NCBI GenBank assembly: GCA_021154885.1
Contig: JAJKHS010000082.1
Span: 1-64,000, forward strand
Direction of reading: 5' to 3'
DNA: 64,000 bases
Source of the DNA: Thermoanaerobaculum sp.
GTDB lineage: Bacteria; Acidobacteriota; Thermoanaerobaculia; Multivoradales; UBA5704
Below the pieces are notes generated by a model. That model saw only the letters and a list, made by a program, of their open reading frames with translations, made no database searches and was not told the origin of the DNA. Shown piece after piece: positions 1-18,439 of this stretch. Numbering within the stretch: the first letter of the stretch is position 1; each line of letters begins with the position of its first letter. The position numbers were made by a program, and so were the translations under genes.

Positions 1-1
1 C

Positions 2-3000
2 CTCAACGGCGTGACCGTCGAGCTGCTCGACGCCAGCAACAACGTCCTGGCGACGGCGACGACCAGCGGCGACGGCAACTACACCTTCTCGAACCTGATG
101 GGCGGCAACTACTCCGTCCGCACCAGCAATCTGCCGGCGGGGGTGACTCCGACCTTCGACCTGGACGGCATCGCGACGCCGAACATCGCGTCGTTCACGC
201 TGGCGGCGGGCGCCAACCGCACGGACGTGGACTTCGGCTACCGCGGCACGGCCTCGGTCGGTGACCGGGTGTGGCTCGACTCCAATGCCGACGGCGTGCA
301 GGACACAGGTGAGACCGGCATCAACAACGTCACAGTCGAGCTGCTCGACGCCGGGAACAGCGTCGTGGGCACGACGACGACGAGCGGTGACGGCAACTAC
401 ACCTTCTCGAACCTGATGGCCGGCAACTACTCGGTCCGCATCGTGGCCGGCAGCCTGCCGGCGGGTGTGGCTCCGTCCTTCGATCTGGACGGCATCGCGA
501 CGCCGAACATCGCCTCCTTCACGCTGGCGGCGGGCGCATCGCGCACGGACGTCGACTTCGGCTATGCCGGCACCGGCTCCATCGGCGACCGGCTGTGGCT
601 CGACACCAACGGCGACGGCGTGCAGGACCCAGGCGAGGTGGGCATCAACGGCACCACCGTCCAACTGCTCGACGGCGGCGGCAACGTGATCGGCACCACC
701 ACCACCGCGGGTGACGGCATCTACCACTTCAACAACCTGACGCCCGGCACCTACAGCGTCCGCGTCGTCAGCACCACACTGCCGGCCGGCGTCACGCCGA
801 CCTTCGACCTGGACGGCATCACGACGCCGAACATCGCCTCCTTCACGCTGGCGGCCGGCACGTCGCGCACGGACGTCGACTTCGGCTACCGCGGCACCGC
901 TTCGGTGGGCGACAGGGTGTGGCTCGACTCGAACGCCAACGGCGTGCAGGACACGGGCGAGACCGGCCTCAACGGCGTCACGGTGCAACTGCTCGACGCC
1001 GGCAACAACGTGCTGGCGACGGCGGTCACCGCGGGCGACGGCAACTACACCTTCGGCAACCTGCTGGGCGGCGCCTACAGCGTGCGGGTGGTGACGAGCT
1101 CCCTGCCGCCGGGCGTGAGCCCGACCTTCGACCTCGACGGCATCGGGACGCCCAACGTCGCGACCTTCACTCTCAACGCCGGCGCCTCGCGCACCGACGT
1201 CGACTTCGGCTACGCCGGCACCGGCTCGGTGGGCGACCGGGTGTGGTTCGACACCAACGGCGACGGCGTGCAGGACGCGGGTGAGGCCGGCATCAACGAC
1301 GTCACCGTCCGGCTCCTCGACGCCGGCAACCACGTGGTGACGACCACCACCACCGCGGGCGACGGCAACTACACCTTCTCCAACCTGACGGCCGGCAACT
1401 ACTCCGTCCAGGTCGACGCTGCCACCCTGCCGCCGGGGTTGGTCGAGACCTTCGACCTCGACGGCGCGGCCACGCCGAACATCGCGTCCTTCACCCTCGC
1501 CGCCGGCACCAGCCGCACCGACGTGGACTTTGGCTACCGCACCCCCGCCACCGCCTCGGTCGGCGACCGGGTCTGGGACGATCGCAACGGCGACGGCGTC
1601 CAGGACGCGGGCGAGCCGGGCCTCAATGCGGTGACCGTCGAGCTCCTCGACGCGGGCAACAACGTCGTGGGCTCCGCCATCACCAGCGGCGACGGCAACT
1701 ACACCTTCTCCAGCCTGGTGGCGGGCACCTACTCCGTGCGCGTCGTCACCGCCAGCCTGCCGGCGGGGATGGACCCGACCTTCGACGCCGACGGTATCGC
1801 CACGCCGAGCATCGCCACCTTCACCCTGGCCACGGGCGAGAGCCGGACCGACATCGACTTCGGCTACCGCGGCACGGCCTCGGTGGGCGACCGGGTGTGG
1901 ACCGACGCCAACGGCGACGGCGTGCAGGATCCCGACGAGACGGGGATCAACGACGTCACCGTCGAGCTGCTCGACGCCAGCAACAACGTGGTGGCGTCCA
2001 CCACCACCAGCGGCGACGGCAACTACACCTTCTCCAACCTGAACGCCGGCAACTACTCGGTCCGCATCGTCACGGCCTCGCTGCCCGCGGGCGTGGCGCC
2101 GACCTTCGACCTCGACGGCGTCGCGACGCCGAACATCGCCTCCTTCGCCCTCGCGGGCGGCGAGGCGCGCACGGACGTCGACTTCGGCTACCGCGGCACC
2201 GGCTCGGTGGGCGACCGGCTGTGGCTCGACACCAACGGCAACGGCGTGCAGGACGCGGGCGAGGCCGGCATCAACGGCGCCACCGTCCAGCTCCTCGACG
2301 GCGGCGGCAACGTGATCGGCACCACCACCAGCGCCGGCGACGGCAACTACCAGTTCAGCAACCTGACGGCCGGCACTTACAGCGTCCGCATCGTTCCCAC
2401 CACGCTGCCGGCGGGCGTGACCCCGACCTTCGACCTCGACGGTATCGCGACGCCGAACATCGCCACCTTCACCCTCGACGGCGGCGCCTCGCGCAGCGAC
2501 GTGGACTTCGGCTACCGCGGCACGGCCTCGGTGGGCGACCGCGTGTGGCGCGACACCAACAGCAACGGCATCCAGGACGCGGGCGAAGCCGGCATCAACG
2601 GCGTCACCGTCCAACTCCTCGACAGCAGCAACAACGTCATCGCCACCGCCACGACCAGCGGTGACGGCAACTACACCTTCTCCAACCTGCTGGGCGGCAG
2701 CTACAGCGTCCGCGTGGTCGCCGGCACGCTGCCCGCGGGCCTGTCGCCGACCTACGACCTCGACGGCACCGGGACGCCTAACATCGCCACCTTCACCCTC
2801 AACGCCGGCACCGCCCGCACCGACGTCGACTTCGGCTACGGCGGCACGGGCTCGGTGGGCGACCGCCTGTGGATCGACAGCAACGGCAACGGTGTCCAGG
2901 ATGCAGGGGAGACCGGCCTCAATGGCGTGACGGTCGAGTTGCTCGACGCCAGCAACACGGTGGTGGGCACGGCCGTCACCAGCGGTGACGGCAACTACAC

Positions 3001-6000
3001 CTTCTCGAACCTGGCGGGCGGCAGCTACTCGGTCCGCGTGGTGGCTGCCACCCTGCCGGCAGGCCTCGCTCCGACCTATGACCTCGACGGCGTCGCGACA
3101 CCGAACATCGCCGCCTTCAGCCTGGGGGTCGGCCAGAACCGCACGGACGTGGACTTCGGCTACCGCGGCACGGCTTCGGTGGGCGACCGCCTGTGGATCG
3201 ACGGCAATGGCAACGGCGTTCAGGATGCGGGTGAGACGGGCATCAACGGGGTGACGGTCGAGCTGCTCAACGCCAGTAGCACGGTGGTGGGCTCGGGCGT
3301 CACGAGCGGTGACGGCAACTACACCTTCTCGAACCTGGACAGCGGCACCTACTCGGTCCGCGTGGTGGCCGCCACCCTGCCGGCCGGCCTGGCTCCGACC
3401 TACGATCTCGACGGCATTGCGACGCCGAACATCGCCTCCTTCGCCTTGGCCGGCGGCCAGAACCGTACGGATGTGGACTTCGGCTACCGTGGCACGGCCT
3501 CGGTGGGCGACCGCCTGTGGCTCGACGCCAACGGCAACGGTGTCCAGGATGCGGGCGAGACGGGCATCAACGGGGTGACGGTCGAGCTGCTCAACGCCAG
3601 CAACACGGTGGTGGGCACGACGACCACGAGCGGTGATGGCAACTACACCTTCTCGAATCTGACGGCCGGCACCTACTCGGTCCGCGTGGTGGCTGCCACC
3701 CTGCCGGCCGGTCTGGCTCCGACCTACGACCTCGACGGCATCGCGACTCCCAACATCGCCTCCTTCAGCCTGGCGGGCGGTGCCAACCGTACGGATGTGG
3801 ACTTCGGCTACCGCGGCACCGGCTCGGTGGGCGACCGGGTGTGGCTCGACACCAATGCCGACGGCGTGCAGGATGCGGGTGAGACGGGCATCAACGGCGT
3901 CACGGTCGAGCTGCTCAACGCCAGCAACACGGTGGTGGGCACGACGACCACGAGCGGTGACGGCAACTACACCTTCTCGAACCTGACGGCCGGCACTTAC
4001 TCGGTCCGCGTGGTGGTTGCCACCCTGCCTGCGGGTGTGGCTCCGAGTTACGACCTCGACGGCATAGCGACTCCCAACATCGCTTCCTTCAGCCTGGCCG
4101 GCGGAGTGTCGCGCACGGACGTGGACTTCGGGTACCGCGGCACCGCCTCCGTGGGCGACCGGGTGTGGCTCGATAGCAACGGCAACGGCGTCCAGGACGC
4201 CGGTGAAACGGGCCTCAACGGGGTGACGGTCCAACTGCTGAATGCCAGCAGCACCGTCATTGCCACCGCGACCACCAGTGGTGACGGCAACTACACCTTC
4301 TCGAACCTGACTCCCGGAAATTACTCCGTGCGGGTCGTGACCAGCAGTCTGCCCGCCGGCCTGACGCAGACCTACGACCTCGACGGCATCGCGACGGCGA
4401 ACATCGCCTCCTTCAGCCTGGCTGCCGGAGCGAACCGTACGGACGTGGACTTCGGCTACCGTGGCGCGGGCGTGGTCGGCGACCGGGTGTGGCTCGACAG
4501 CAACGGTAACGGCGTTCAGGACGCCGGCGAGGCCGGCATCAACGGCGTCACCGTCCAGCTCCTCGATGGTGGCGGCAACGTGATTGCCACCACCACGACT
4601 GCGGGTGACGGCAACTATGGCTTCAGCAACCTGGTGGCCGGCACCTACAGCGTTCGTATCGTGACCGGCTCGCTGCCGGCGGGGGTCAGTCCGACCTTCG
4701 ACCTCGACGGTGTTGCGACGCCCAACGTGGCCACGTTCAGCCTGGGTGCCGGCGCGTCGCGCACGGACGTCGACTTCGGCTATCGCGGCACCGCTTCCGT
4801 GGGTGACCGGGTGTGGCTCGACGCCAACGGCAACGGCGTCCAGGACGCGGGTGAGACCGGGATCAACGGCGTCACCGTCCAGCTCCTCGACGGCGGCGGC
4901 AACGTGGTCGGCTCCGCGACGACCGCGGGCGATGGCAACTACACTTTCTCCAACCTCGCGGCCGGGAGCTACTCGGTACGCGTGGTCTCCGGCACGCTGC
5001 CGGACGGCGTGACGCCGACCTTCGACCTCGACGGCATCGCCACGCCGAACATCGCTTCCTTCACGCTCGCCGCCGGCGCCAACCGCACCGACGTCGACTT
5101 CGGCTACCGCGGCACCGGCTCGGCCGGCGACCGCGTCTGGAACGACGCCAACGGCAACGGCGTCCAGGATGCGGGCGAAACCGGCATCAACGGCGCCACC
5201 GTCCAGCTCTTCAATGGCGCGACCCTGGTCGCGACCACGACCACGGCCGGTGACGGCAACTACACGTTCAACAACCTGACGCCTGCCACCTACACCGTCA
5301 AGATCGTGCCGGGCACGCTGCCGGCCGGGGTGGTCACTCCGACCTTCGACCTCGACGGCATCGCCACCGCCAACCAGGCCACCTTCACCCTCGCCGCCGG
5401 TCAGAATCGCACCGACGTCGACTTCGGTTATCGCGGCGCCGGCTCGATCGGCGATCGCGTCTGGCTCGACACCAACGGCAACGGCGTCCAGGACGCTGGC
5501 GAGACGGGCATCAACGGCGCCACCGTCCAGCTCTTCAACGGCGCGACCCTGGTCGCGACCACGACCACGGCCGGTGACGGCAACTACACGTTCAGCAACC
5601 TGGCGCCGGCCACCTACACCGTCAAGATCGTGCCGAGCACGCTGCCGGCCGGGGTCGTTCCGACCTTCGACCTCGACGGCATCGCCACTGCCAACCAGGC
5701 CACCCTCACCCTCGCCGCCGGCGCCTCGCGCACCGACGTCGACTTCGGTTATCGCGGCACCGCCTCGGTGGGTGACCGCCTCTGGTACGACACCAACGGC
5801 AACGCCACCCAGGACGCCGGGGAGACCGGCATCAATGGCGTCACCGTCCAGCTCCTCGATAGCGGCAGCAACGTGATCGCCACCACCACGACGAGCGGTG
5901 ACGGCAACTACACCTTCGCCAACCTGCTGGGCGGCAGCTACACCGTCCGCGTGGTCGCCAGCACGCTGCCGGCGGGCTTCAGCCCGACCTTCGACCTCGA

Positions 6001-9000
6001 CGGCATCGCCACGGCGAACACCGCCAGCTTCACCCTGAACGCCGGCGCTTCGCGCACCGACGTCGACTTCGGCTACCGCGGCACGGCTTCGGTCGGCGAT
6101 CGCGTCTGGTACGACGTCAACGGCAACGGCGTCCAGGATTCCGGTGAGACCGGCATCAACGGCGCCACCGTCCAGCTCCTCGACAACGGCGGCAACGTCA
6201 TCGCCACCGCCACCGCGGCCGGCAACGGCAACTACTCGTTCACCAACCTGAACGCCGGCACCTACAGCGTCCGCGTGGTCAGCAGCACCCTGCCTGCGGG
6301 CTACGGGCCGACCTTCGACCTCGACGGCATCGCCACCGCCAACGTGGCCACCTTCACTCTCACCGCCGGTCAGAGCCGCACCGACGTCGACTTCGGCTAC
6401 CGTGGCACCCTCTCCGTGGGCGACCGCGTGTGGAACGACGGCGACGGCGACGGCGTCCAGGATGCCAGCGAGACCGGCCTCAACGGCGTCACCGTCCAAC
6501 TGCTCGACAGCGGCGGCACCGTCATCGCCACCACCACGACGGCCGGCAACGGCAACTACACCTTCTCCAACCTGGGAGCCGGCACCTATACGGTCCGCGT
6601 GGTCAGCAGCACCCTGCCCGCGGGCTACACGCCGACCTTCGACCTCGACGGCACCGGGACCGCTCACCAGGCGACGTTCAGCCTGACCGCCAACCGCACG
6701 GACGTCGATTTCGGCTACCGCGCTGTCGTCTGCACGGCGGGTTACTTCAAGGACACGTTCACCACCAACAGCTTCTCCAACAACGAAGGCACGCTGAGCT
6801 GGAGCGGCCCGTGGATCGAGAACGACGTGGCGGGGGCGGGAGTGAGCACGGGCAACGTGACCGTGGGGACCCCCTTTGCCGGGTACCTGATCCTGCGTGA
6901 CTACCCCGATACCGGCACCCAGCCGAGCGCGGCCCGCGAGGTCAATCTCTCGGGCTTCGCGTCCGCGACGCTGACGGTCGACTTGCACCTCAAGCAAGTC
7001 GAGCCTGACGACGCGGCGGTGATCGAGATCTCGAAGGACGGCGGTGCCACCTACACCGTGCTGGAGACGCTGACCGGCTACACCACCACCGACCTTGTCA
7101 CTTCGCGCACCTACGACATCTCGGCCTACAGGGCCAGCAACACCCGGATCCGCTTCCGGATCAGCGCCAACTATGGTGGCAGCGACGACCTCTTCAAGGT
7201 GGACGCGGTGCGGATCGACGCCACCTGCACCCTCCAGACCTTCTCGATCGGCGACCGGGTCTGGAAAGACACCGACGGCGATGGCGTCCAGGATTCCGGC
7301 GAGCCCGGGATCAGCGGCGTCACCGTCCAGCTCCTCAACAGCAGCAACACCGTCGTCGCCACCACGACCACCGACAGCAACGGCAACTACACCTTCTCCA
7401 ACGTCGCCGCCGGCAACTACACGGTCAAGGTGGTCAGCAGCAGCCTGCCCGCGGGCTATATGCCGACCTTCGACCTCGACGGCGTTGCGACGCCTCACAC
7501 GGCTTCGTTCAACTTGACGGCCAGCCGCACGGACGTGGACTTCGGCTACCGCCCCACGACCTGCGCGGCGGGTTCCTTCAAGGACACATTCACCACCAAC
7601 AGCTTCTCCAACAACGAGGGCACGCTGAGTTGGAGCGGCGCGTGGATCGAGAACGACGTGGCGGGGGTGGGGGTGAGCAGCGGCAACGTCACCGTGGGGA
7701 CTCCCTATGCCGGCTACCTGATCCTGCGCGACAGCCCCGACACCGGCACCGAGCCGAGCGCGGCACGCCAGGTCAACCTCTCGGGCTTCGCGTCCGCGAC
7801 GCTGACGGTCGCCTTCCACATCAAAGGAGTCGAGGCCGACGACGCGGTGGTCATCGAGGTGTCGAAGGATGGCGGTGTCACCTACACCGCGCTGGAGACG
7901 CTGACCGGCTATACCGGCACGTACATCAGCTCTCGCACCTACGACATCTCGGCCTACATCGCCAGCAACACCCGGATACGCTTCCGGATCAGCGGCAACT
8001 ACGGTGGCACTGACGACCTCTTCAAGGTGGACACGGTGCAGATCGACGCCACCTGCACGCCCCAGACCTTCTCGATCGGCAACCTGGTCTGGAAGGACAC
8101 GAACGGCAACGGCGTCCAGGATACCGGCGAGCCCGGGATCAGCGGCGTCACCGTCCAGCTCCTCAACAGCAGCAACACCGTCGTCGCCACCACGACCACC
8201 GACAGCAACGGCATCTACGGCTTCTCCAACGTCGTCGCCGGCAACTACACGGTCCGCGTGGTCAGCAGCAGCCTGCCGGCCGGCTATACGCCGACCTTCG
8301 ACCTCGACGGCATCGCGACACCGAACACGGCGTCGTTCAACCTGACGGCCAACCGGACGGACGTGGACTTCGGGTATCGCCCCGGCGGCACGCTCTCCGT
8401 CGGCGACCGCGTCTGGAAGGACGCCAACGCCAACGGCATTCAGGACTCCGACGAGCCCGGCATCAGCGGGGTGACCGTCCAACTGCTGAACGGCAGCGGC
8501 ACCGTGATCGCCACCACCACGACCAACAGCACCGGCAACTACACCTTCACCGGCCTGTTCGCGAGCACCTACACCGTGAAGGTGGTGGCCAGCTCACTGC
8601 CATCGGCCACCTTCACCGAGACCTACGACCTCGACGGTGTGGCGACGGCCAACCAGGCGACGTTCACCCTCACGGTCAGCCGCTCGGACGTCGACTTCGG
8701 GTACCACTTCCCGAGCCCCACGGCCGGCGGCACCGCCACCCTCGGGTACTGGAAGACCCACCCGGAGGCCTGGCCGGTCCAGTCGATCACCATCGGCGGG
8801 ATCACCTACACCAAGGATCAGGCCATCACCTGGCTGGGCACTCCGGTCCGGGGAGACGAGTCGATCGCCCTCTTCCACCAGCTCGTCCCCGCCGAGCTCA
8901 ACGCTCTGATGAGCAATAACATCAGTTGCATCTTCCCGATCATCCAGGCCGCCGACGCCTGGATGGCGCAGCACCCTGTGGGCAGCGGCGTATCGACCAG

Positions 9001-9088
9001 CAGCTCCACCGGGCAGGCGGGGAATGCCCTGGAGGTGCAGCTCGACTCCTACAACAACGGCAATCTGTGCGCTCCGCACCGGAACTGA
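2..9088 (+). CDS. Giant SdrD_B-repeat surface protein, 5' end outside window
   Basis: The frame is already open at base 2, so the true start lies upstream and at least 3028 residues are visible. The protein is a chain of 24 repeats of about 107 residues (the first partial). Each begins near S-V-G-D-R-V-W-x-D-x-N-G-N-G-x-Q-D and ends in T-D-V-D-F-G-Y-R, the pattern of SdrD_B / Cna-B-like beta-sandwich repeats with Ca-binding DxNxDG loops. Repeats 21/22 and 22/23 are separated by two copies of a roughly 170-residue domain with terminal cysteines. The last 120 residues form a GYWKTHPEAWP domain. No LPXTG, PEP-CTERM or T9SS signal is seen at the C-terminus. It is probably secreted or cell-surface and adhesive or structural; the family is clear, the role is inferred. 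The next gene is separated by a terminator. Confidence 0.85.
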   Translation, partial: LNGVTVELLDASNNVLATATTSGDGNYTFSNLMGGNYSVRTSNLPAGVTPTFDLDGIATPNIASFTLAAGANRTDVDFGYRGTASVGDRVWLDSNADGVQDTGETGINNVTVELLDAGNSVVGTTTTSGDGNYTFSNLMAGNYSVRIVAGSLPAGVAPSFDLDGIATPNIASFTLAAGASRTDVDFGYAGTGSIGDRLWLDTNGDGVQDPGEVGINGTTVQLLDGGGNVIGTTTTAGDGIYHFNNLTPGTYSVRVVSTTLPAGVTPTFDLDGITTPNIASFTLAAGTSRTDVDFGYRGTASVGDRVWLDSNANGVQDTGETGLNGVTVQLLDAGNNVLATAVTAGDGNYTFGNLLGGAYSVRVVTSSLPPGVSPTFDLDGIGTPNVATFTLNAGASRTDVDFGYAGTGSVGDRVWFDTNGDGVQDAGEAGINDVTVRLLDAGNHVVTTTTTAGDGNYTFSNLTAGNYSVQVDAATLPPGLVETFDLDGAATPNIASFTLAAGTSRTDVDFGYRTPATASVGDRVWDDRNGDGVQDAGEPGLNAVTVELLDAGNNVVGSAITSGDGNYTFSSLVAGTYSVRVVTASLPAGMDPTFDADGIATPSIATFTLATGESRTDIDFGYRGTASVGDRVWTDANGDGVQDPDETGINDVTVELLDASNNVVASTTTSGDGNYTFSNLNAGNYSVRIVTASLPAGVAPTFDLDGVATPNIASFALAGGEARTDVDFGYRGTGSVGDRLWLDTNGNGVQDAGEAGINGATVQLLDGGGNVIGTTTSAGDGNYQFSNLTAGTYSVRIVPTTLPAGVTPTFDLDGIATPNIATFTLDGGASRSDVDFGYRGTASVGDRVWRDTNSNGIQDAGEAGINGVTVQLLDSSNNVIATATTSGDGNYTFSNLLGGSYSVRVVAGTLPAGLSPTYDLDGTGTPNIATFTLNAGTARTDVDFGYGGTGSVGDRLWIDSNGNGVQDAGETGLNGVTVELLDASNTVVGTAVTSGDGNYTFSNLAGGSYSVRVVAATLPAGLAPTYDLDGVATPNIAAFSLGVGQNRTDVDFGYRGTASVGDRLWIDGNGNGVQDAGETGINGVTVELLNASSTVVGSGVTSGDGNYTFSNLDSGTYSVRVVAATLPAGLAPTYDLDGIATPNIASFALAGGQNRTDVDFGYRGTASVGDRLWLDANGNGVQDAGETGINGVTVELLNASNTVVGTTTTSGDGNYTFSNLTAGTYSVRVVAATLPAGLAPTYDLDGIATPNIASFSLAGGANRTDVDFGYRGTGSVGDRVWLDTNADGVQDAGETGINGVTVELLNASNTVVGTTTTSGDGNYTFSNLTAGTYSVRVVVATLPAGVAPSYDLDGIATPNIASFSLAGGVSRTDVDFGYRGTASVGDRVWLDSNGNGVQDAGETGLNGVTVQLLNASSTVIATATTSGDGNYTFSNLTPGNYSVRVVTSSLPAGLTQTYDLDGIATANIASFSLAAGANRTDVDFGYRGAGVVGDRVWLDSNGNGVQDAGEAGINGVTVQLLDGGGNVIATTTTAGDGNYGFSNLVAGTYSVRIVTGSLPAGVSPTFDLDGVATPNVATFSLGAGASRTDVDFGYRGTASVGDRVWLDANGNGVQDAGETGINGVTVQLLDGGGNVVGSATTAGDGNYTFSNLAAGSYSVRVVSGTLPDGVTPTFDLDGIATPNIASFTLAAGANRTDVDFGYRGTGSAGDRVWNDANGNGVQDAGETGINGATVQLFNGATLVATTTTAGDGNYTFNNLTPATYTVKIVPGTLPAGVVTPTFDLDGIATANQATFTLAAGQNRTDVDFGYRGAGSIGDRVWLDTNGNGVQDAGETGINGATVQLFNGATLVATTTTAGDGNYTFSNLAPATYTVKIVPSTLPAGVVPTFDLDGIATANQATLTLAAGASRTDVDFGYRGTASVGDRLWYDTNGNATQDAGETGINGVTVQLLDSGSNVIATTTTSGDGNYTFANLLGGSYTVRVVASTLPAGFSPTFDLDGIATANTASFTLNAGASRTDVDFGYRGTASVGDRVWYDVNGNGVQDSGETGINGATVQLLDNGGNVIATATAAGNGNYSFTNLNAGTYSVRVVSSTLPAGYGPTFDLDGIATANVATFTLTAGQSRTDVDFGYRGTLSVGDRVWNDGDGDGVQDASETGLNGVTVQLLDSGGTVIATTTTAGNGNYTFSNLGAGTYTVRVVSSTLPAGYTPTFDLDGTGTAHQATFSLTANRTDVDFGYRAVVCTAGYFKDTFTTNSFSNNEGTLSWSGPWIENDVAGAGVSTGNVTVGTPFAGYLILRDYPDTGTQPSAAREVNLSGFASATLTVDLHLKQVEPDDAAVIEISKDGGATYTVLETLTGYTTTDLVTSRTYDISAYRASNTRIRFRISANYGGSDDLFKVDAVRIDATCTLQTFSIGDRVWKDTDGDGVQDSGEPGISGVTVQLLNSSNTVVATTTTDSNGNYTFSNVAAGNYTVKVVSSSLPAGYMPTFDLDGVATPHTASFNLTASRTDVDFGYRPTTCAAGSFKDTFTTNSFSNNEGTLSWSGAWIENDVAGVGVSSGNVTVGTPYAGYLILRDSPDTGTEPSAARQVNLSGFASATLTVAFHIKGVEADDAVVIEVSKDGGVTYTALETLTGYTGTYISSRTYDISAYIASNTRIRFRISGNYGGTDDLFKVDTVQIDATCTPQTFSIGNLVWKDTNGNGVQDTGEPGISGVTVQLLNSSNTVVATTTTDSNGIYGFSNVVAGNYTVRVVSSSLPAGYTPTFDLDGIATPNTASFNLTANRTDVDFGYRPGGTLSVGDRVWKDANANGIQDSDEPGISGVTVQLLNGSGTVIATTTTNSTGNYTFTGLFASTYTVKVVASSLPSATFTETYDLDGVATANQATFTLTVSRSDVDFGYHFPSPTAGGTATLGYWKTHPEAWPVQSITIGGITYTKDQAITWLGTPVRGDESIALFHQLVPAELNALMSNNISCIFPIIQAADAWMAQHPVGSGVSTSSSTGQAGNALEVQLDSYNNGNLCAPHRN
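6731..8392 (+). repeat. 831-bp tandem duplication inside the SdrD_B gene
   Basis: A block made of an extra domain (starting C-T-A-G-Y-F-K-D-T-F) plus one SdrD_B repeat at 6731-7561 is followed directly by a second copy at 7562-8392 (C-A-A-G-S-F-K-D-T-F). The offset is exactly 831 bp, or 277 codons. The copies are near-identical over long stretches at the DNA level, which points to a recent in-frame duplication. Confidence 0.8.
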
Positions 9089-9134: not shown

Positions 9135-9144
9135 CGAGTCTTCC

Positions 9145-9180
9145 GGGCGCTCCGGCAGTATCGGAGCGCCCGTTCTTTTT
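9145..9180 (+). terminator. Rho-independent terminator of the SdrD_B gene
   Basis: GGGCGCTCCG (9145-9154) pairs perfectly with CGGAGCGCCC (9162-9171) around a 7-nt loop. A T-rich tract, GTTCTTTTT, follows at 9172-9180. It is correctly placed about 57 bp after the stop codon at 9086-9088. Confidence 0.9.
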
Positions 9181-9246: not shown

Positions 9247-9507
9247 ATGATTCGAGTTGCAATACCCGAGACGGTGCTCTTCCGCGATCTCGACGGCGAG
9301 GCGGTCCTCCTCGCCACGGATTCCGGGCGCTATTTCGGCCTCAACGAAGTCGGCACCCGCATGTGGTCGCTGCTCCGCCTCCACGGCGATGTCGAGGCGG
9401 TCTGCCGTGCCCTGCTCGCGGAGTACGAGGTGCCCGAGGCGCGTCTGCGGGAAGACCTCGCGCAGTTCGTCGGCACACTGGCTGCCAGAGGGCTCGTCAA
9501 GATATGA
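9247..9507 (+). CDS. PqqD-like lasso B1 (RRE) protein
   Basis: An 86-residue PqqD-family protein. In lasso systems this stand-alone RiPP recognition element (B1) binds the precursor leader and hands it to the processing enzymes. The sequence shows the expected PqqD features: an early L-x-D-L-D-G-E-A-V-L-L strand pair, G-R-Y-F-G-L-N-E-V-G-T-R-M-W, and a helical C-terminal half. The ATG at 9247 is chosen because it gives the normal family length and follows the TATAAT promoter. Its stop overlaps the cyclase start (ATGA at 9504-9507), so the two are translationally coupled. The precursor's YxxPxLxxxGxxxxxT motif is the expected ligand. Confidence 0.8.
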   Translation: MIRVAIPETVLFRDLDGEAVLLATDSGRYFGLNEVGTRMWSLLRLHGDVEAVCRALLAEYEVPEARLREDLAQFVGTLAARGLVKI

Positions 9508-11387
9508 GCGGCCTCTGCGGCGTGGTGGACTTCGCGGCTCCCCGGATCGAGCCGGAGAACCTCCGGAGCATGGCGGAGTCCTCTTCCTACCGGGCCCCCG
9601 GGGGAATCGGCTACCTTTTTCTGCGCGAAGCGGGTCTTGCCTATCAGGCGCTCCAGGCTCCGGCCGAGGGTGCGAGCCTGGACCAGCCCCTCCTCGAGCC
9701 CCATCACCAGATCTGCCTCGTCATGGATGGACGTCTCGACAATCGCTCAGAGCTCATCGACCGGCTCGGTCCGGCGGGGGGGCGGTCAACCTCGGACGCC
9801 GGGCTGCTCCTCGCCGCCTACCTCCAGTGGGGAATCGAGTGCACCGATCACCTCCTCGGCGACTTCGCCTTTGCCCTCTGGGATGCCCCCCGGCGGCGGC
9901 TCCTCTGCGCCGTCGATCCTCTCGGGATCAAGCCGCTCCACTATGCCCGTGCCGGTTCACTCTTCTGCTTCGCCTCGGACGCGGTGCAGGTCCTGCAGCA
10001 TCCGGCGGTCCCCGACGGCTACGACGAGCGGGAGATCGCGGCCTACCTCGCCAGCCAGGCCGAGGCCCCGGATCGGAGCTTCTTCGCTGCCATTCAAAAA
10101 TTGGCGCCCGGCCACCGGTTGATCGCCGCGAGCGGCGTCCTGCGAGTGGAGCGCTATTGGTCTCCGGGTAATGGGGAGGTCCGCTACTCGCGGGACGAGG
10201 AGTACGCCGCTCATTTTCGCGAGCTTCTCCAGCGGTCGGTGGCCGACCGTCTTCGCGACGCCGGGGCATTCGCGGGGATCGCGATGAGCGGCGGGCTCGA
10301 CTCGACCTCGGTGGCGGCCCTCTCACGTCGCGCCTCGGGTTCTGGCACCCGCGCCTATACCTTCGTTTTCGACCGCTTCCCCGAATGCGATGAGCGGACC
10401 TACAGCCGGGCGATGACGGAGGAGCAGGGCCTCGACGTCGAGCCCGTCGAGGCGGAGCGTCTCTGGAGCCTGGAGTCGCAGGCCGCTCTGCCTCACAGCC
10501 CCGACACGCCCTTCGTCGGGTGGCGGACCTGCTATCAGGAGATCTTCCGCCAGATGGCGGCGCATGGCTCCCGGGTGCTGCTGATGGGGCACGGCGGTGA
10601 CGACCTGCTCCGGGGCAGCTCGCTGGTGTATGCGGAGCGCCTGCGGCGAGGCGAGCTGGCGGCGGTTCGCGAGGTCGTGCGTCACGCCCGCCGGCGCCGG
10701 CAGCCGGTCCTGCGGTCGCTCTATCGCCATTTCGGCCGGCCGCACCTGCCTGCCAGTATCGATCGCCGGCTGCGCTCGGCGCTGGGAAAACACGAGGTTG
10801 CCCTCTCCTCGTTCATCCATCCGGACTTCGTGCTTCGTACTCGAATCGAACGTCCACGCCCGCCGAAGACCGCGCGCCAGGAGGTTCATGCCAACCTGGT
10901 GCAGATCCCCTGGTATTGGCGGCTCGCCAACTGGCACGACCGTAACGCTGCATCGTTCGGCATGGAAGTGCGTCACCCCTTCCTGGACCGGCGGCTTTTC
11001 GAGTACGTTCTGGCGATTCCGGGAGAGCAGCTTTTCCGGCTGGGTTGCACCAAGAACCTCCTGCGGCGTGCCATGGCAGGAGTGCTCCCGGAGAGGATCC
11101 GGCTCCGGGAGAGCAAGACCCGGTTCACACGTTTTCTTGACTTCGTCGTGCTGGAGCGAGCGTCCGGCGAGATCCAGGAGCTCCTGAAAGCTCCGCGGTC
11201 CGCCGATCTGGGGATCTTGGACGGGGAAGGATTGCGATCGGCCTATCTTGGCTTTGTACGCGGGAGAACAGACGAGTCGAGGCGCGCCCTGTGGTATGCC
11301 ATCAACCTCGAGATCTGGTTGAGACGTTGCGAGGCGCTGCGCGACGACAGGCGGCGAAACGTGCGGGTGACGAGCGCTGCCGCCTGA
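9504..11387 (+). CDS. Lasso cyclase (asparagine-synthase-like, LasC/McjC type)
   Basis: A 627-residue homologue of class B asparagine synthetase. An N-terminal Ntn/glutaminase-like domain starts M-S-G-L-C-G-V-V. The synthetase domain has the ATP-pyrophosphatase signature S-G-G-L-D-S near residue 262. The Cys is residue 5, not residue 2 as in active glutaminases, which fits a lasso cyclase that adenylates the Asp/Glu side chain and lets the core N-terminus attack, rather than a glutamine-dependent enzyme. It follows the RRE gene with a 4-nt overlap and is followed 34 bp later by the precursor. In isolation it would be called asnB; the context decides the assignment. Confidence 0.8.
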   Translation: MSGLCGVVDFAAPRIEPENLRSMAESSSYRAPGGIGYLFLREAGLAYQALQAPAEGASLDQPLLEPHHQICLVMDGRLDNRSELIDRLGPAGGRSTSDAGLLLAAYLQWGIECTDHLLGDFAFALWDAPRRRLLCAVDPLGIKPLHYARAGSLFCFASDAVQVLQHPAVPDGYDEREIAAYLASQAEAPDRSFFAAIQKLAPGHRLIAASGVLRVERYWSPGNGEVRYSRDEEYAAHFRELLQRSVADRLRDAGAFAGIAMSGGLDSTSVAALSRRASGSGTRAYTFVFDRFPECDERTYSRAMTEEQGLDVEPVEAERLWSLESQAALPHSPDTPFVGWRTCYQEIFRQMAAHGSRVLLMGHGGDDLLRGSSLVYAERLRRGELAAVREVVRHARRRRQPVLRSLYRHFGRPHLPASIDRRLRSALGKHEVALSSFIHPDFVLRTRIERPRPPKTARQEVHANLVQIPWYWRLANWHDRNAASFGMEVRHPFLDRRLFEYVLAIPGEQLFRLGCTKNLLRRAMAGVLPERIRLRESKTRFTRFLDFVVLERASGEIQELLKAPRSADLGILDGEGLRSAYLGFVRGRTDESRRALWYAINLEIWLRRCEALRDDRRRNVRVTSAAA

Positions 11388-11421
11388 GCGTGGGACTCAG
11401 AGCTCCCAGGAAAGGTTCACG

Positions 11422-11607
11422 ATGACCAAGACACCCGAAGCTCAAGAGTCCAGTTCCCTGGTGCTCCAGCCCGATGAGAAGGGCTCTCCCAGGAAACCCT
11501 ATGAAAGCCCTGTGCTGATGGAATGGGGATCGATCGTGGAGCTCACCGGCGGTCCGTTCGCCGACATCACCGACGAGGGATTCAACGGCGGCAGCGGAGG
11601 TGTGTGA
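11422..11607 (+). CDS. Lasso peptide precursor (61 aa)
   Basis: A small gene with a good Shine-Dalgarno (AGGAAAGG about 10 bp before ATG). Residues Y27, P30, L32, G36 and T42 match the lasso leader motif YxxPxLxxxGxxxxxT exactly. Lasso leaders are normally cut two residues after the start of the TG pair (Thr at -2), giving an 18-residue core, GPFADITDEGFNGGSGGV. Gly1 and an acidic residue at position 8 (Asp51) or 9 (Glu52) allow an 8- or 9-member macrolactam ring. The tail is glycine-rich; Phe11/Asn12 are the only bulky candidates for a steric plug. The motif is seen directly; cleavage and ring choice are inferred. The stop overlaps the start of the kinase-like gene. Confidence 0.82.
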   Translation: MTKTPEAQESSSLVLQPDEKGSPRKPYESPVLMEWGSIVELTGGPFADITDEGFNGGSGGV

Positions 11608-12587
11608 GCCCCACAGAGCCAACCTATCCGGATCGGCGCCATCGCCTGTTCGCAATCACAGTGACGAACGAGCTCCCCTTGGCGGTCTTGCTGCCGCAGG
11701 GAGGCGGACCTGCCGATCTGACCCTGCGCCTCTCGCCGCAGCCTCTTCTATCTTCGGCTCGATCCACCTCGCGCCCGCTCTATTCCAGCTCGTCCCGCGA
11801 CAAGGAAGGTGTGAGCCTCGGGTCCCTCTACCACGAGCCGGCTGGAGAAATACTCAGCTTTGCCGGAGCCGGTGATTTTCTTATCCGCTCCGACCACATC
11901 GACGGCTACTCTCCTGACTGGTCGAACGGTCTCGCGGAGCTCCGTTTCCTGGGGCCGGTCCTGTCCTACTGGTTCGAGCGCCGCGGCCTGCCGGCCTTCC
12001 ACGCCTCCGCGATCTCTGTGCAAGGCCGCGCCGTCGCCTTCGTGTCCCGTCACGGCGGCGGCAAGAGCGGGCTGGCGGCTGGCATGATCGCGGCTGGAGC
12101 TTCATTGCTGACTGACGACCTGCTGGTGCTGGAAGAGCGGGAGGGTCACTGGGAGGCCCGCCCATCCTACCCTTTGATGCGGATGTGGCCAGACGAAGCC
12201 GAGCACTTCCTCGGAAACTACGCCGGCCTGCCTCGGGTGCAGGAGGATTCCGAGAAGCGGAGCGTCGCGGTCGGGGCGGGCGGGTTCGGCACCTTCCACG
12301 ACGCCTCCAGCCCCCTGGCCTGCATCTACCTGGCCACTCGGGTCGAGGGAGCGGAGATCGTGCAGATCCAGCCGGTCTCCCGGAGCGAGGCGCTGATCGA
12401 GCTGGTTCGCCACTCCTTCTCGCCGCGGCTCGTGGAGGCTGCGGGCCTGCAGCCCGCCCGTCTGGATCTCCTGGCTCGTCTGGTGCGCAGAGTGCCGGTG
12501 CGGCGTCTCGTCTATCCTTCGAGGTTTGAACGATTGGGAGAGATCGCCGGCCAGATCCTCCGAAGTACTCGATCGCTCCAGGAATGA
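11604..12587 (+). CDS. HPr-kinase-like protein of the lasso locus
   Basis: A 327-residue protein related to the HPr kinase/phosphorylase C-terminal domain. It has the typical A-F-H-A-S-A-I-S-V-Q-G strand, a P-loop ending H-G-G-G-K-S-G (K154, S155) and the following L-L-T-D-D-L-L-V-L. Start: GTG at 11604, overlapping the precursor stop and preceded by GGAGG (11597-11600 region). Such kinases occur in paeninodin-type lasso clusters, where they phosphorylate a Ser of the precursor. Ser58, four residues from the end of this precursor, is the obvious candidate. Scaffold or binding roles without catalysis are also possible. Confidence 0.7.
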   Translation: MSPTEPTYPDRRHRLFAITVTNELPLAVLLPQGGGPADLTLRLSPQPLLSSARSTSRPLYSSSSRDKEGVSLGSLYHEPAGEILSFAGAGDFLIRSDHIDGYSPDWSNGLAELRFLGPVLSYWFERRGLPAFHASAISVQGRAVAFVSRHGGGKSGLAAGMIAAGASLLTDDLLVLEEREGHWEARPSYPLMRMWPDEAEHFLGNYAGLPRVQEDSEKRSVAVGAGGFGTFHDASSPLACIYLATRVEGAEIVQIQPVSRSEALIELVRHSFSPRLVEAAGLQPARLDLLARLVRRVPVRRLVYPSRFERLGEIAGQILRSTRSLQE

Positions 12588-12820: not shown

Positions 12821-13990
12821 TCAGCTCGCGATGCGCCGGATGGTAGCGATCTCCGGTTCGGCCAGTCCCAACTCGGTCTTGATCTCCTCCCGCTGCAAAC
12901 GGGCGAGGCGACGGGCGTCTCTCGACATGCCCATCTGCCGCATCGCCAGGACTACCGAGAACTCCAGAGCCACGAGGGCCACTCCCAGAGCGGTCTGGCC
13001 GGTGATGGCGACCAGCAGGGCCAGGGCGCAGAAGGAGAGTACTACGGCGTAGATCACCGCCACGATGCGGGAGCGATTGCCGCCGAAGTGCTCGAGGACG
13101 TGGTGCAGATGGTTGCGGTCGGCCCGGAACATGCGCAGGAAACGGGTCGTGAACGGGCCCTTGGGACGGTCGAGGAAGCGGACCGCCATCACCAGCAGGG
13201 TGTCCATGACGGGCACCCCGAGCGCCAGGATGGGGACCAGGATGGCCACCGTGGCCGGCGCCTTGAGGGAGGAGTGGACGGCCGTGGCGGCGAGGAGGAA
13301 TCCCAGGGTGAGGGACCCGGAGTCGCCCATGAAGATGCGCGCCGGCTCCCAGTTGTGGCGCAGGAATCCAATGCAGGCCCCGGCCAGGGAGGCCATCAGA
13401 ATCACGGTGCCGGGGTTGCCCTGGAGGATGGCATAGGCGAGGAAGCTCACCGAGATGATGGTGCCGACGCCGCCGGCCAGCCCGTCCAGCCCGTCGATGA
13501 GGTTGATGGCGTTGGTGACGCCGACGATCCAGAGCAATGACACCACCTCGCGGCAGAGACCGAGGTCGATGGCGCCCACGCCGGGTAGCCGCAGGACCTC
13601 GAACGACCAGCCGACCCGGACCAGGAGCCAGGCCGCCAGGAGCTGGAACAGGAACTTCTTGGCCGCGGAGACCCCCACCAGGTCGTCGAGGACGCCGACG
13701 AAGAAGACGATGCCGGTGCCGAGCGCCAAGGCGACGAGCTCGCCCCGTCCGGCGCCGGTGCCCAGCCGGCCCCACTGGGAGACGGCCACCACCCCGCCGC
13801 CCAAGGCGAGGCCGAGGACGATGGCGATGCCGCCCAGGCGCGGCACGGAGCCCGCCTGGAGCCTCCGGTCTCCCGGGTGGTCCAGGGCGCGCAGGGCCAC
13901 CGCCAGGCGCGTGATGGGCGGCACCATCAGATTGGTGAAGAGGCCGGCGACGAAGGCGGCGCCGAAAGCGTACAGCAGGATTCCATCCAT
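12821..13990 (-). CDS. wecA: WecA/TagO-type undecaprenyl-phosphate sugar-1-phosphate transferase
   Basis: A 389-residue polytopic inner-membrane protein of the MraY/WecA family. It transfers a HexNAc-1-phosphate from UDP to undecaprenyl phosphate and so starts lipid-linked glycan assembly. Family hallmarks seen: the cytosolic loop G-V-L-D-D-L (first Asp pair), [12 protein letters not shown], the F-M-G-D-S-G-S motif, and a histidine-rich R-N-H-L-H-H-V-L. About ten hydrophobic segments are present, the normal number. It is the last gene of a four-gene minus-strand operon (epimerase, acyltransferase, GT4, this) and probably initiates the glycan finished by the large cluster. Sugar specificity cannot be read from sequence. 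Confidence 0.85.
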
Positions 13991-14066
13991 GCAGCGTAGC
14001 TCCGATGCGATCGGCGGCCCGCGGGCGCGCCCGAAATTGCTCTACTAATCGCTAGTTAGCTGAGGA

Positions 14067-15209
14067 CTATGGTACCGCAGAATCCCGGGTTTGTCTCGCC
14101 TTTTCTGCGGCGATCTCTTCCAGCGCCCGAGCCACTCCCGCTGCGTCGCCCACGTCGACCCGCCGGTAGCGGCCGGACGGCAGGTCCCGGGAGGCCAGGA
14201 GGTGCAGGTCCGACCGCGGGCTGCCGATGTAGAGGAGGTTGCGCCCAGACTGGAGGCAGCCGTAGATCTTGGACGGGAGCACGTACCCCACGAACTCGTC
14301 GCGCAACGTGACGAGGTGGACGTCGGGCGTCACCAGCAGCCGCGGCAGCAACTCCAGACTTACGGGGAGGCTGCGGTGGAACGGCAGGTCCTCCGCCTGC
14401 AACGCGGCGGCGACGCGGTCCGCCCGGGCGCCAGTGGCGTTGAGCCAGAAGACCACCCGCCCGGAGCCTTCGCGGTGGTGCCGGCGATAGCCCGCGACGA
14501 AGGTCTCATGGTCGTGGGCGACGCCGAAGTTGCCGGAGTAGAGGAGGATCGCGCGGCCGGCGAGCTCGGCCGGCGGCTCCAGGGGCGCGGTCCCCGGCGG
14601 GATCTCCACCGGCGAGGGATCGCGCTTGAGCACGATGCGCTCGGGGTCGATGCCGATCTCCAGGAGCCGCTCTCGCTGATCCTCCCCCAGCACCTCGAAG
14701 CGGTCCACGCGGCGGCGCAGGGCCACCGTCCAACGGTGAAAGAACCGCAGCGCCGCCTCCGAGGGGGAGGAGTGCCCCTGCGCGGCCCGCTCGGCCATCA
14801 GGCATTCGGGGTGGAAGTCGGTGATGCGGTAGGTCAGCCGCCTGCGCAGCAGCAGGTTCAGGGGTCCCAGGAGGTGGATGAGAAAGGGTGGGCTGCCGGT
14901 GAACAGCACCTCGTCGGCACGGCGGATCTCCCGCCGCAGCGTCCACACCAGGGAGAGGTTGGTCCGCGCCGTCCACAGCGCCCGGCCGCGCAGGTTCGCG
15001 CGGTCGTAGGCCGGCGCCCGCAGGCGGACGATGCGCAGCCGGCCGCTCCCCGGCCGCTCCTCCTCGACCGAGGTGGCGGTCGCGGAGAGGCCGGCGAGGA
15101 CCACGTCCTCGCCCCCGGCGGCCCGCTCGCGCGCGAAGAGCAGGCTGTACTGGCCGACGGCGCCGAAGTCCGGCGGCAGCCAGTCGCAGAGATAGACCAG
15201 CCGGTGCAT
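14067..15209 (-). CDS. Glycosyltransferase family 4 (WbuB-like)
   Basis: A 380-residue GT-B fold glycosyltransferase. The N-terminus (L-V-Y-L-C-D-W-L-P-P-D-F-G-A-V-G-Q) is the acceptor-side Rossmann domain with the usual Pro/Gly-rich loop. The C-terminal half has L-L-Y-S-G-N-F-G and a late E/D-containing nucleotide-sugar site around V-L-P-S-K-I-Y-G-C-L-Q-S-G. It resembles WbuB/Cap-type enzymes that add the second sugar to an undecaprenyl-PP-HexNAc. Its position next to the WecA-type gene supports that role. The donor sugar is unknown. Confidence 0.75.
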   Translation of the reverse strand: MHRLVYLCDWLPPDFGAVGQYSLLFARERAAGGEDVVLAGLSATATSVEEERPGSGRLRIVRLRAPAYDRANLRGRALWTARTNLSLVWTLRREIRRADEVLFTGSPPFLIHLLGPLNLLLRRRLTYRITDFHPECLMAERAAQGHSSPSEAALRFFHRWTVALRRRVDRFEVLGEDQRERLLEIGIDPERIVLKRDPSPVEIPPGTAPLEPPAELAGRAILLYSGNFGVAHDHETFVAGYRRHHREGSGRVVFWLNATGARADRVAAALQAEDLPFHRSLPVSLELLPRLLVTPDVHLVTLRDEFVGYVLPSKIYGCLQSGRNLLYIGSPRSDLHLLASRDLPSGRYRRVDVGDAAGVARALEEIAAEKARQTRDSAVP

Positions 15210-15227
15210 GGCGGGGCGGCCCTCAGG

Positions 15228-16370
15228 TCAGGGCGCCGCGGGGGCGGGGGAGGACGGCAGCAGCGAAAAGCGCTGCTCCTTGAGGCGCAGGAAGGGGGAC
15301 TCGAGATACCGGTAGGAGAAGTGCGCCAGCAGGAAGGTGGCGCCGAAGACCAGGGCGTAGAAGAGCACGCAGTAGAGCCAGAGGGGGCCTCGCCACCAGC
15401 CGGTCGCCTTGAACAGGGCCGAGGTGCCGTAGACGGCGATCATGTGGAGCATGTAGATGCCGTAGGAGATCGTCCCCAGGTAGTCGAAGGCCCGGTTCCC
15501 GACCCGCAGGACGTTGCGCGGGTTGGCGGCGACGTTGACGATGAGCCACGGATAGAGGACGAGCTGCGCCGCCTCGTCCGCCAGCCCGCGCCAGTGGGCG
15601 AAGTTGGAGAGGTAGTAATCGGCGAGGAGCCCGAAGAGGACGATCTGCACGGCCCGGCTGGTGAAGACCGGCAGTGCGAGGAAGCGGTCCCGGTGGCGGT
15701 GGAGCCACCAGGCGCAGAGGCCTCCCGCGGCCATGAAGTGGAACTGGAGCTGGCCGGCGAATTTCTTCCACACGCCATCGCCGAAGACGTCGAAATAGGT
15801 CAGCCAGGAGACGGCGAGGAAGACGGCGAAGACGGTCCAGCAGAGGGCCGGCAACCGCTCGCGTGCGCGCTTCAGGGCCGGCGCCCAGAACAGGTAGAAC
15901 TGCTCCTCGACGCCGATGGACCACGACGGATTGAGGATTCCCCCCACGGTGTACAGGCTGTTCATCAGGTTGGGGAGGAAGAAGCTGTAGAGGAGAGCGG
16001 CCAGGGGGAGGCTGTATTCGACCCGGTAGTGGACGCCGGCGGCGGGGAGCAGGGCGTTGTAGAAGAACAGGCCGGCGAAGACCACCGCGAAGTAGAGCGG
16101 CCAGATGCGGAGCACCCGCCGCATGTAGAAGCTGCGGACGTCGACGTCGCCCGTCCGCCGCCGCTCCTCCAGCAACAGGTAGGTGATGAGGAACCCGCTG
16201 AGGGTGAAGAAGAAGGAGACGGCACAGGAGCCGCGGAAGAAGAGCGCGCCATAGGAGGGGTGCGGCAGGCCGAGGCTGGCCTGGTTGAGGGGGACGTGGC
16301 CGATCACCACGAACAGGGCGGCGAAGAACCGCAGGCTGTTCAGCCCCTTGAAGTGGACCCTGGGCTCCAT
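15228..16370 (-). CDS. Acyltransferase 3 family membrane protein (OafA/YrhL-like)
   Basis: A 380-residue membrane protein of the acyltransferase 3 family. It starts L-N-S-L-R-F-F-A-A-L-F-V-V-I-G-H-V, where the conserved Arg and His lie in the first membrane helix. F-F-F-T-L-S-G-F-L-I-T-Y-L follows, then R-R-V-L-R-I-W-P-L-Y-F and roughly ten hydrophobic segments. These enzymes O-acetylate sugars of surface polysaccharides, using cytoplasmic acetyl-CoA. It sits between the epimerase and a GT4 gene, with short gaps on both sides, and probably decorates the glycan made here. Confidence 0.85.
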   Translation of the reverse strand: MEPRVHFKGLNSLRFFAALFVVIGHVPLNQASLGLPHPSYGALFFRGSCAVSFFFTLSGFLITYLLLEERRRTGDVDVRSFYMRRVLRIWPLYFAVVFAGLFFYNALLPAAGVHYRVEYSLPLAALLYSFFLPNLMNSLYTVGGILNPSWSIGVEEQFYLFWAPALKRARERLPALCWTVFAVFLAVSWLTYFDVFGDGVWKKFAGQLQFHFMAAGGLCAWWLHRHRDRFLALPVFTSRAVQIVLFGLLADYYLSNFAHWRGLADEAAQLVLYPWLIVNVAANPRNVLRVGNRAFDYLGTISYGIYMLHMIAVYGTSALFKATGWWRGPLWLYCVLFYALVFGATFLLAHFSYRYLESPFLRLKEQRFSLLPSSPAPAAP

Positions 16371-16389
16371 CGCAAATCCGGACCGGCGC

Positions 16390-17409
16390 CTAGCGCTCGG
16401 TGAGCATCCCGGCGAGGTAGCCGCTGACGGTCTCCCGCTCCCGCGAGGAGAAGTACCAGTCGATGGTGCGGTGCAGGCCGTCCATGAACTTCACCTGCGG
16501 CTCCCAGCCCAGGAGCTCGCGGGCCAGGCGGTTGCTGGCCACGCGGTTGAGGGGTCCGGTGGGCATGTGGGGGAGGAGCCTGATCTCGGCCTCGTGGCCG
16601 GTGTAGCGCAGCACCTCACGCACGGCTTCGATCACCCGCGTGCGCTCCTCGGTGCCGAGGTTGACGGCGGTGCCGTCGTCGATCGTCTCGGCGGCGCGGA
16701 CCATGCCGCTGACGATGTCGCCTACGTAGGTCCAGTTGCGGATCTGGGTGCCGTCACCCCAGACCTCGAAGGGGTCCTGGCGCACGAAGGCGCGGGCGAT
16801 CATGGCGATGACGGCATGGTTCTCGACGCCGCGCTCGCCGTAGACGGTGAAGAAGCGGCAGGAGGCGGCCTTGAGCCCGAAGTCCCGCGCATAGGCCCGC
16901 AGCGTCATCTCCGTCATCAGCTTCGCCCAGCCGTACATGTTGTCGGCGTCGTAGGGCGGCCCCACCATCTCCTCGGTGAGGTAGACCTCCTGGTTGACGT
17001 CCCCCTGGAGGTGGTTGGGGTAGACGCAGCCGGAGGAGGCGAAGACGAATTTGCCGGCGCCCGCCTCGTGGGCGGCCTTGATCAGCAGGCCGTCCAGCGC
17101 CAGGTTCTGGGCGCAGGCGGCCTGGTGCAGGTCGACGAAGCCGCGGCCGCCGTGGATGGCGGCGAGGTGGAAGACGATGTCGATCCCCGTCACCATGCGC
17201 TGCGCCACGCCGGGCGCCAGGAGGTCCTCGCGGTGGAATTCCACCACCCCGGAGTCGACGTGCCCCTGGATGTTGGCGAGCCGGCCGCTCGACAGGTCGT
17301 CGACGACGCGGATGCGCCGCGTGCCCTTCGCCACGAGCAGGTCGATGAGGTGCGAGCTGATGAACGAGGCCCCGCCGGTGACGAGGACACTCTGCTGCTT
17401 CCAATCCAT
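16390..17409 (-). CDS. NAD-dependent sugar epimerase/dehydratase (extended SDR)
   Basis: A 339-residue extended short-chain dehydrogenase acting on nucleotide sugars. Visible are the catalytic Y-G-W-A-K (YxxxK), S-S-G-C-V-Y-P around the catalytic Ser, and R-N-W-T-Y-V-G-D-I. The Rossmann loop reads T-G-G-A-S-F-I-S-S-H-L, where the second and third glycines of the usual GGAGFIGSHL are both Ser. It resembles UDP-glucose 4-epimerase and GDP-mannose 3,5-epimerase relatives; the exact reaction is uncertain. First gene of the minus-strand operon that ends with the WecA-type gene, with a candidate promoter just upstream. Confidence 0.78.
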   Translation of the reverse strand: MDWKQQSVLVTGGASFISSHLIDLLVAKGTRRIRVVDDLSSGRLANIQGHVDSGVVEFHREDLLAPGVAQRMVTGIDIVFHLAAIHGGRGFVDLHQAACAQNLALDGLLIKAAHEAGAGKFVFASSGCVYPNHLQGDVNQEVYLTEEMVGPPYDADNMYGWAKLMTEMTLRAYARDFGLKAASCRFFTVYGERGVENHAVIAMIARAFVRQDPFEVWGDGTQIRNWTYVGDIVSGMVRAAETIDDGTAVNLGTEERTRVIEAVREVLRYTGHEAEIRLLPHMPTGPLNRVASNRLARELLGWEPQVKFMDGLHRTIDWYFSSRERETVSGYLAGMLTER

Positions 17410-17447
17410 GGCCGATCTCCGTCCGGGATGCCGGTTGGCGGTGACTT

Positions 17448-17475
17448 AGTGTAATCGAAGCTCCGGCGCAGGCAA
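17448..17475 (-). promoter_or_regulatory. Putative promoter of the epimerase-wecA operon
   Basis: Reading the minus strand, TTGCCT (17470-17475) and TACACT (17448-17453) are separated by 16 bp. The expected start is about 30 bp before the epimerase ATG. It lies in the 94-bp divergent gap shared with the plus-strand glycosyltransferase gene. Confidence 0.4.
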
Positions 17476-17503
17476 ACCGGGCCGAGGCTACAATGGCTGA
17501 AGA

Positions 17504-18376
17504 ATGGCTCCTTCCCCTCAGGGCCCGCTCCGCGTCGCGAGCATCGTCGGCCACCGCCAGGTGGAGATGGCCGTCCTCTGTCTCGGCAGCCTCCTGCGCC
17601 ACTCCGCGGAGGAGCTGGCGCTGCGGCTCCACGACGACGGCTCCCTCACGGCGGCGGACCGGGAGCGCCTCGCCGCCGAGCTGCGCGGCCCGGAGGTCGT
17701 CTCCCGCGCCGAGGCCGACGAGCAGACGGCGGACTTCCTCGCCCGCCACCCGGCCCTGCGCGCTTTCCGGCGCGGCAACGTCATGGCCCTGAAGCTGATC
17801 GACGCCATGCTCTTCGCCGGCGACGAGCTGGCCTACTGCGACAGCGACGTCCTCTTCCTGCGGCCCTTCTCCGGTCTCTACCCGCTGCGCGAGACGGCGG
17901 CGGGCGCGATGTTCATGAGCGACCGCCAGAACGCCTACTCGATCCGCTCCTGGCACCTGCTGCGCTACCCCGGCCTGCGCCTGCCCTGGCGGCTGAACGC
18001 CGGCATCACGGCCTTCCGGGCCGCGGGCTTCGACCTCGACCTGCTGGAGTGGTACGTGTCGCGGCCGGAGCTGCAGTTCGCGCCGGTATGGATGGAGCAG
18101 ACCGCCTGGGGCCTGCTCGCCGGACGGGTGGGGTGCCGCCTGCTCGATCCGGACCAGGTCGCCATCCCCGTTCCCGGAGAGCCGGCGCCGGCGGGGATCG
18201 TGGCCCTCCACTTCGTCTCGCCGGTGCGCTCGCTCCTCGCCGGATACGCCGTCCCGTCCGCGAGCGAAGCCCGGCAGCCGGTGGCGCTGCGCAGCGCGCC
18301 GGCCCGGCGCTGCCGCGCCGTCGATCTGGCCGTCACCGAGGCCCGGCGCTGGCTCGCCCGGCGCGTGTCGGGTTGA
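17504..18376 (+). CDS. Glycosyltransferase-like protein (GT-A fold, DxD)
   Basis: A 290-residue protein with V-A-S-I-V-G-H at the N-terminus and a Y-C-D-S-D-V-L-F segment near residue 118 that matches the metal-binding DxD site of GT-A fold glycosyltransferases. It also has W-R-L-N-A-G-I-T-A-F and E-Q-T-A-W segments, as in GT8-like nucleotide-diphospho-sugar transferases. It is the only plus-strand gene between two minus-strand polysaccharide operons. The promoter-like TACAAT at 17489-17494 ends 9 bp before the ATG, so the mRNA may be leaderless. The acceptor is unknown. A degenerate repeat array follows it. Confidence 0.6.
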   Translation: MAPSPQGPLRVASIVGHRQVEMAVLCLGSLLRHSAEELALRLHDDGSLTAADRERLAAELRGPEVVSRAEADEQTADFLARHPALRAFRRGNVMALKLIDAMLFAGDELAYCDSDVLFLRPFSGLYPLRETAAGAMFMSDRQNAYSIRSWHLLRYPGLRLPWRLNAGITAFRAAGFDLDLLEWYVSRPELQFAPVWMEQTAWGLLAGRVGCRLLDPDQVAIPVPGEPAPAGIVALHFVSPVRSLLAGYAVPSASEARQPVALRSAPARRCRAVDLAVTEARRWLARRVSG

Positions 18377-18439
18377 ATCGGCTGCGGGAGCGGGGCATCG
18401 GTTGCGCGGCCGGAAAATCCAAGGCTTTGAATCGCCGGG

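Follow-up and report, generated by a model that had tools for sequence, protein, structure and literature searches.

A probable lasso-peptide gene set in Thermoanaerobaculum and its candidate leader peptidase beyond a giant SdrD_B-repeat gene

A compact group of biosynthetic genes in a Thermoanaerobaculum genome, carried on the 64,000-nucleotide stretch of DNA that was analysed as a whole (the window), raises the question of whether a lasso-peptide locus can lack the B2 leader peptidase, as a preliminary description of the locus had proposed, or whether the peptidase is encoded elsewhere. The reading favored here, at a probability of roughly 80%, is that the locus makes a lasso peptide and that a B2 protein encoded on a second contig of the genome, C14, serves as the leader protease.

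Gene set, precursor and ring residue

The stand-alone RRE, cyclase, precursor and kinase-like gene are found closely coupled at window positions 9247-12587 just as first described, each with Pfam and NCBIfam support. The spacing of the four consists of 4-bp overlaps (ATGA and GTGA) and one 34-bp gap:

1..9088, + strand: 3' three quarters of a gene for a giant SdrD_B-repeat secreted or surface protein (Pfam SdrD_B)
9144..9172, + strand: intrinsic terminator, 12-pair stem and T run, after the giant gene and ahead of the lasso genes
9247..9507, + strand: B1, stand-alone RRE of the PqqD family, 86 aa (PF05402, 9e-20; lasso_PqqD model, 1.7e-15)
9504..11387, + strand: C, lasso-type macrolactam cyclase, 627 aa (NF033535, 1e-105; PF00733, Asn_synthase, 9e-48)
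11422..11607, + strand: A, precursor, 61 aa (NF033521, 25 bits, cut-off 19)
11551..11604, + strand: 18-aa stretch predicted as the core peptide (core position 8 acidic in 13 of 14 precursors)
11604..12587, + strand: K, HPr-kinase-like peptide kinase, 327 aa (TIGR04352, HprK_rel_A, 1.5e-7)

The four genes are found again in a genome of the same genus, G001, where the cyclase is 67% identical, and this copy excludes a chance feature. Judged from sequence, the set is very likely a genuine one for a lasso peptide; the lasso-type assignment is borne out by the RRE, cyclase and leader matches together with the clusters of relatives. The strong terminator at 9144-9172 separates the giant gene from the lasso genes, which therefore probably form a transcription unit of their own with its own promoter.

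The cyclase scores 355 bits against NF033535, under that model's very high cut-off of 525; in alignment its PP-loop SGGLDS is intact, and since the N-terminus reads MSG the glutaminase Cys is absent. The kinase-like product gives a weak and partial HprK match and carries a His, the P-loop GGGKS and an Asp-Asp pair; the H, GK[ST] and DD elements are kept in 16 of 16 aligned sequences and agree with the motif of the lasso kinase BsfK (PMC10368454). Elsewhere in the window, a polysaccharide-type region (glycosyltransferases, acyltransferase, epimerase, DegT aminotransferase) runs mostly on the minus strand from 12821 to 27833 and further, and the product of another Asn-synthase-like gene, 45375-47141, scores above cut-off as an ordinary asparagine synthase and is no lasso cyclase.

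The precursor is the sole NF033521 match in the genome and is composed of a leader part, YESPVLMEWGSIVELTG, and a core, GPFADITDEGFNGGSGGV, that starts at Gly44. The leader displays the YxxPxL...G motif with Thr at -2, whose Y, P, G and T are invariant in relatives; among nine aligned precursors the invariant residues are Y27, P30, G36, L41, T42 and D51. Core residue 1 is Gly in most of 14 related precursors, the others having Ser, Asn or Phe. The core tail, EGFNGGSGGV, holds the conserved Ser/Thr region; such a Gly-Ser/Thr region is kept in the tail of most precursors and is a possible phosphorylation site. The G001 core, GDQQNFTDVDFNGGSRAA, follows the same leader motif and has 8 of its 18 residues in common with the window precursor; the core of a further genome, G091, is GPFGALTDAPFNGSRNAE, and 8 of 18 residues are again common to the window core.

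Either Asp8 or Glu9 had been put forward for ring closure. An acidic residue occupies core position 8 in 13 of the 14 precursors and position 9 in the remaining one, while any other core position is acidic in at most 3 of the 14. This distribution points to a Gly1-Asp8 lactam as the likely ring; i.e. the Asp8 half of the proposal stands and closure at Glu9 is disfavored, position 9 being acidic in just 2 of the 14.

B2 proteins of the genome and the contig join

Neither a B2 gene nor an ABC transporter is present in the immediate cluster, as described, but the claim that the locus is without a B2 is not supported. A search of the rest of the genome with PF13471, the check proposed in the preliminary description, yields two B2 proteins, on contigs C14 and C95. 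The C14 protein scores 75 bits against PF13471 and 77.4 bits against NF033537 (cut-off 33) with Cys and His conserved; the C95 protein scores 49 bits against PF13471. C14 opens with the 5' part of an SdrD_B-repeat gene, and the window starts within one; once C14 is reverse-complemented, its final 90 bases are exactly the window's first 90. No other exact copy of these 90 bases occurs in the genome, and the weaker matches lie on C14 or the window contig, with one exception, a 27-base stretch on C144. Joining the two contigs gives a single open frame of 3,919 aa, and the N-terminal domain of the giant gene is present in a single copy in this genome.

The joined order is B2, groES, groEL, a 205-aa gene, a BTAD regulator, the giant gene, RRE, cyclase, precursor and kinase. 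The B2 is on the strand of the lasso genes; groEL is followed by the 205-aa gene (which has no family match) and a BTAD regulator on the opposite strand. From the end of B2 to the RRE is about 17.5 kb on the same strand, across groESL and the giant gene, a distance that presumes the repeat gene to be assembled at its true length. A canonical lasso B2 thus lies across the giant gene on an overlapping contig; its apparent absence is an artefact because the contig ends inside the giant gene, and B2 loss as a biological feature of the genome is ruled out by the search of the genome and the join of the two contigs. The missing exporter fared otherwise: a regular-expression scan of the window, 20 kb of C14 and the relatives' loci checked found no ABC ATPase motif, and the peptide would presumably leave by a general route.

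That the leader is removed by some other protease, be it the C95 B2 or a non-lasso enzyme, with the C14 B2 serving something else, is unlikely. The position of the C14 B2 counts against the favored reading, in that it lies outside the lasso operon and adjoins groES; a CIRCE-like operator with one mismatch, proper to groES, lies between the two on C14 (L003 8306-8332), so that B2 and groES need not be co-transcribed. A reading with another protease draws on the PF13471 match of the C95 B2 and on three genomes (G026, G027 and G060) that keep the cluster and in which the genome search recognized no C14-type B2; these may be incomplete assemblies or use another protease, and B2 may therefore not always be the leader protease. 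Yet the second B2 of the genome, that of C95, has an RRE, a kinase and a 24-aa precursor of its own, forms a very long separate branch in the B2 tree, and has a counterpart that the same-genus genome G002 keeps though the cluster is absent; it is judged an unlikely partner on these grounds. The C14 B2, in contrast, has no RRE beside it, its type goes with the cluster in G000, G001 and G003, and G002 is devoid of cyclase, kinase, giant-gene N-terminus and C14-type B2 alike. The B2 tree places the C14 protein with its counterparts from the cluster-bearing G001 and G003 (95-97% bootstrap), and the proteins next nearest to it by path are cluster-borne B2s, the deeper forks being weak.

Two side observations concern the same genomes. 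The predicted core residue 1 is Ser, Ser and Asn in G026, G027 and G060 (loci L039, L042 and L037), respectively. The C95 genes (L004, 8963-11056) and their G002 counterpart on contig C480 (L093) constitute a cyclase-less system of RRE, B2 and HPr-kinase-like protein, whose 24-aa precursor, MKKTYRKPSLRRLGLLRQITRFSF, has only about four residues beyond its lasso-type leader.

Clusters of relatives, the giant protein and a PRTase-RRE fusion

Relatives were sought in 149 genomes of the class and in the GTDB genome collection. In complete clusters the gene order is RRE-B2-cyclase-precursor-PRTase/RRE-kinase-groES-groEL in G091 and RRE-B2-precursor-cyclase-PRTase/RRE-kinase-groES-groEL in G063 and G064. 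The giant gene precedes RRE-B2-cyclase-precursor-kinase in G089, RRE-B2-cyclase in G050 and RRE-B2-precursor-cyclase-kinase in a Chloroflexi genome (L117). In a gammaproteobacterium (L103; a single, gap-free contig) the giant gene lies between B2 and the cyclase-precursor-kinase genes, and in G003 the B2, kinase and PRTase-RRE genes lie 5' of the giant gene. Other genomes of the same taxonomic order share the neighborhood: G059 and G060 have groES-groEL-BTAD-giant gene, and G058 has two giant genes after groEL, with the BTAD gene beyond both. No exact contig-end overlaps were found in G001, G003, G059 and G060, and the joins there are accordingly made by synteny.

The giant protein, whose start resembles a signal peptide and whose SdrD_B repeats form a long array, had been taken for an unrelated flank. 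Independent searches with its 386-residue N-terminal part and with the window kinase family find matches in 16 and 20 (E <= 1e-20) of the 149 genomes, and both together in 14 genomes of six families (Fisher 3e-13, a value that overstates the strength since the genomes are related). Giant gene and lasso genes are neighbors in Acidobacteriota, one gammaproteobacterial and one Chloroflexi genome. By this co-occurrence in sequence the giant gene is a recurrent partner of the clade's lasso genes and no chance flank. Its conserved N-terminal domain (~390 aa) matches nothing in Pfam or NCBIfam, and a model of its fold (pLDDT 72, moderate) finds no PDB match at E <= 0.001.

Many relatives also have, near the kinase, a PRTase-RRE gene that is absent from the window cluster:

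L036, 6168-7385: PRTase-RRE fusion
L037, 4750-5958: PRTase-RRE fusion
L042, 9920-10822: PRTase-RRE fusion
L082, 2996-4384: PRTase-RRE fusion
L091, 6438-7400: PRTase-RRE fusion
L097, 4316-5284: PRTase-RRE fusion
L200, 2368-3405: PRTase-RRE fusion
L201, 4694-5938: PRTase-RRE fusion

The C-terminus of these proteins is an RRE whose closest fold is the lasso B1 protein TbiB1 (TM 0.86-0.88 by target), and the N-terminal part is similar to purine phosphoribosyltransferases (pLDDT of the model 68; Foldseek E about 1e-4). On the strength of these models the fusion is possibly a new lasso tailoring enzyme; judged by title and abstract, the papers found describe no PRTase tailoring enzyme, and the literature search found no paper joining lasso peptides with SdrD or with Thermoanaerobaculia.

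The strong link to the giant SdrD_B protein could be taken to mean that RRE, cyclase, precursor and kinase make something other than a lasso peptide, e.g. a macrolactam that is not threaded, or a phosphorylated peptide, still with its leader, that is used locally with the giant protein. The variable residue 1 and the lack of an exporter in the motif scan would fit such a product; however, a Gly1-Asp8 lactam predicts just the acidic residue that the precursors conserve at core position 8 (in one case 9), and the sister clusters have a B2 and a like style of core, and a non-lasso product is held to be improbable. A decaying cluster that has lost B2 and exporter is very improbable: the window cluster is without the B2 and PRTase-RRE that relatives have, but its four frames are open, its catalytic motifs intact, the same-genus orthologue organized alike, and the B2 present on C14. 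A more tentative proposal, possible but doubtful, is that peptide and giant protein form one system conserved across phyla, in which the peptide would be displayed on, released with or regulate the surface protein, many members having the PRTase-RRE protein as a new tailoring enzyme.

Proposed pathway and known systems

In the lasso-peptide reading preferred here, the RRE would bind the YxxPxL leader and the kinase would probably phosphorylate a Ser or Thr in the tail of the precursor. The C14 B2, presumably acting in trans with the RRE as its partner, would cut after Thr-Gly, and the ATP-dependent cyclase would then close the ring between the freed amine of Gly1 and the side chain of Asp8, the expected product being a threaded lasso with a calculated [M+H]+ of 1678.73, or 1758.70 when phosphorylated. 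Cluster finders that need a B2 within a few kilobases would score this locus as incomplete despite the presence of all its parts, and the recurrent giant repeat protein and the PRTase-RRE of relatives are testable leads on the purpose and tailoring of lasso peptides.

Kinase-bearing lasso clusters of the paeninodin and BsfK type consist of A, B1, B2, C and K (PMC5067487, PMC9266682, PMC10368454). The window locus shares with them a separate RRE and cyclase, an H-GK[ST]-DD kinase and a YxxPxL leader with, as in paeninodin-type leaders, Thr at -2. It differs from them in that the B2 is displaced beyond the giant SdrD_B gene, no ABC transporter was found, the tail is not Ser-ended, and groESL and a BTAD regulator are among the linked genes. 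Maturation enzymes encoded away from their RiPP clusters are likewise known in the citrulassin PAD (PMC9266682) and lanthipeptide proteases (PMC8960859); unlike these, the enzyme concerned here is the core leader peptidase B2, and what separates it from the cluster is a gene that recurs with the cluster. The giant protein resembles SdrD_B and Cna_B repeat surface proteins in its start and its repeats, and is set apart from them by its conserved N-terminal domain that is tied to lasso genes.
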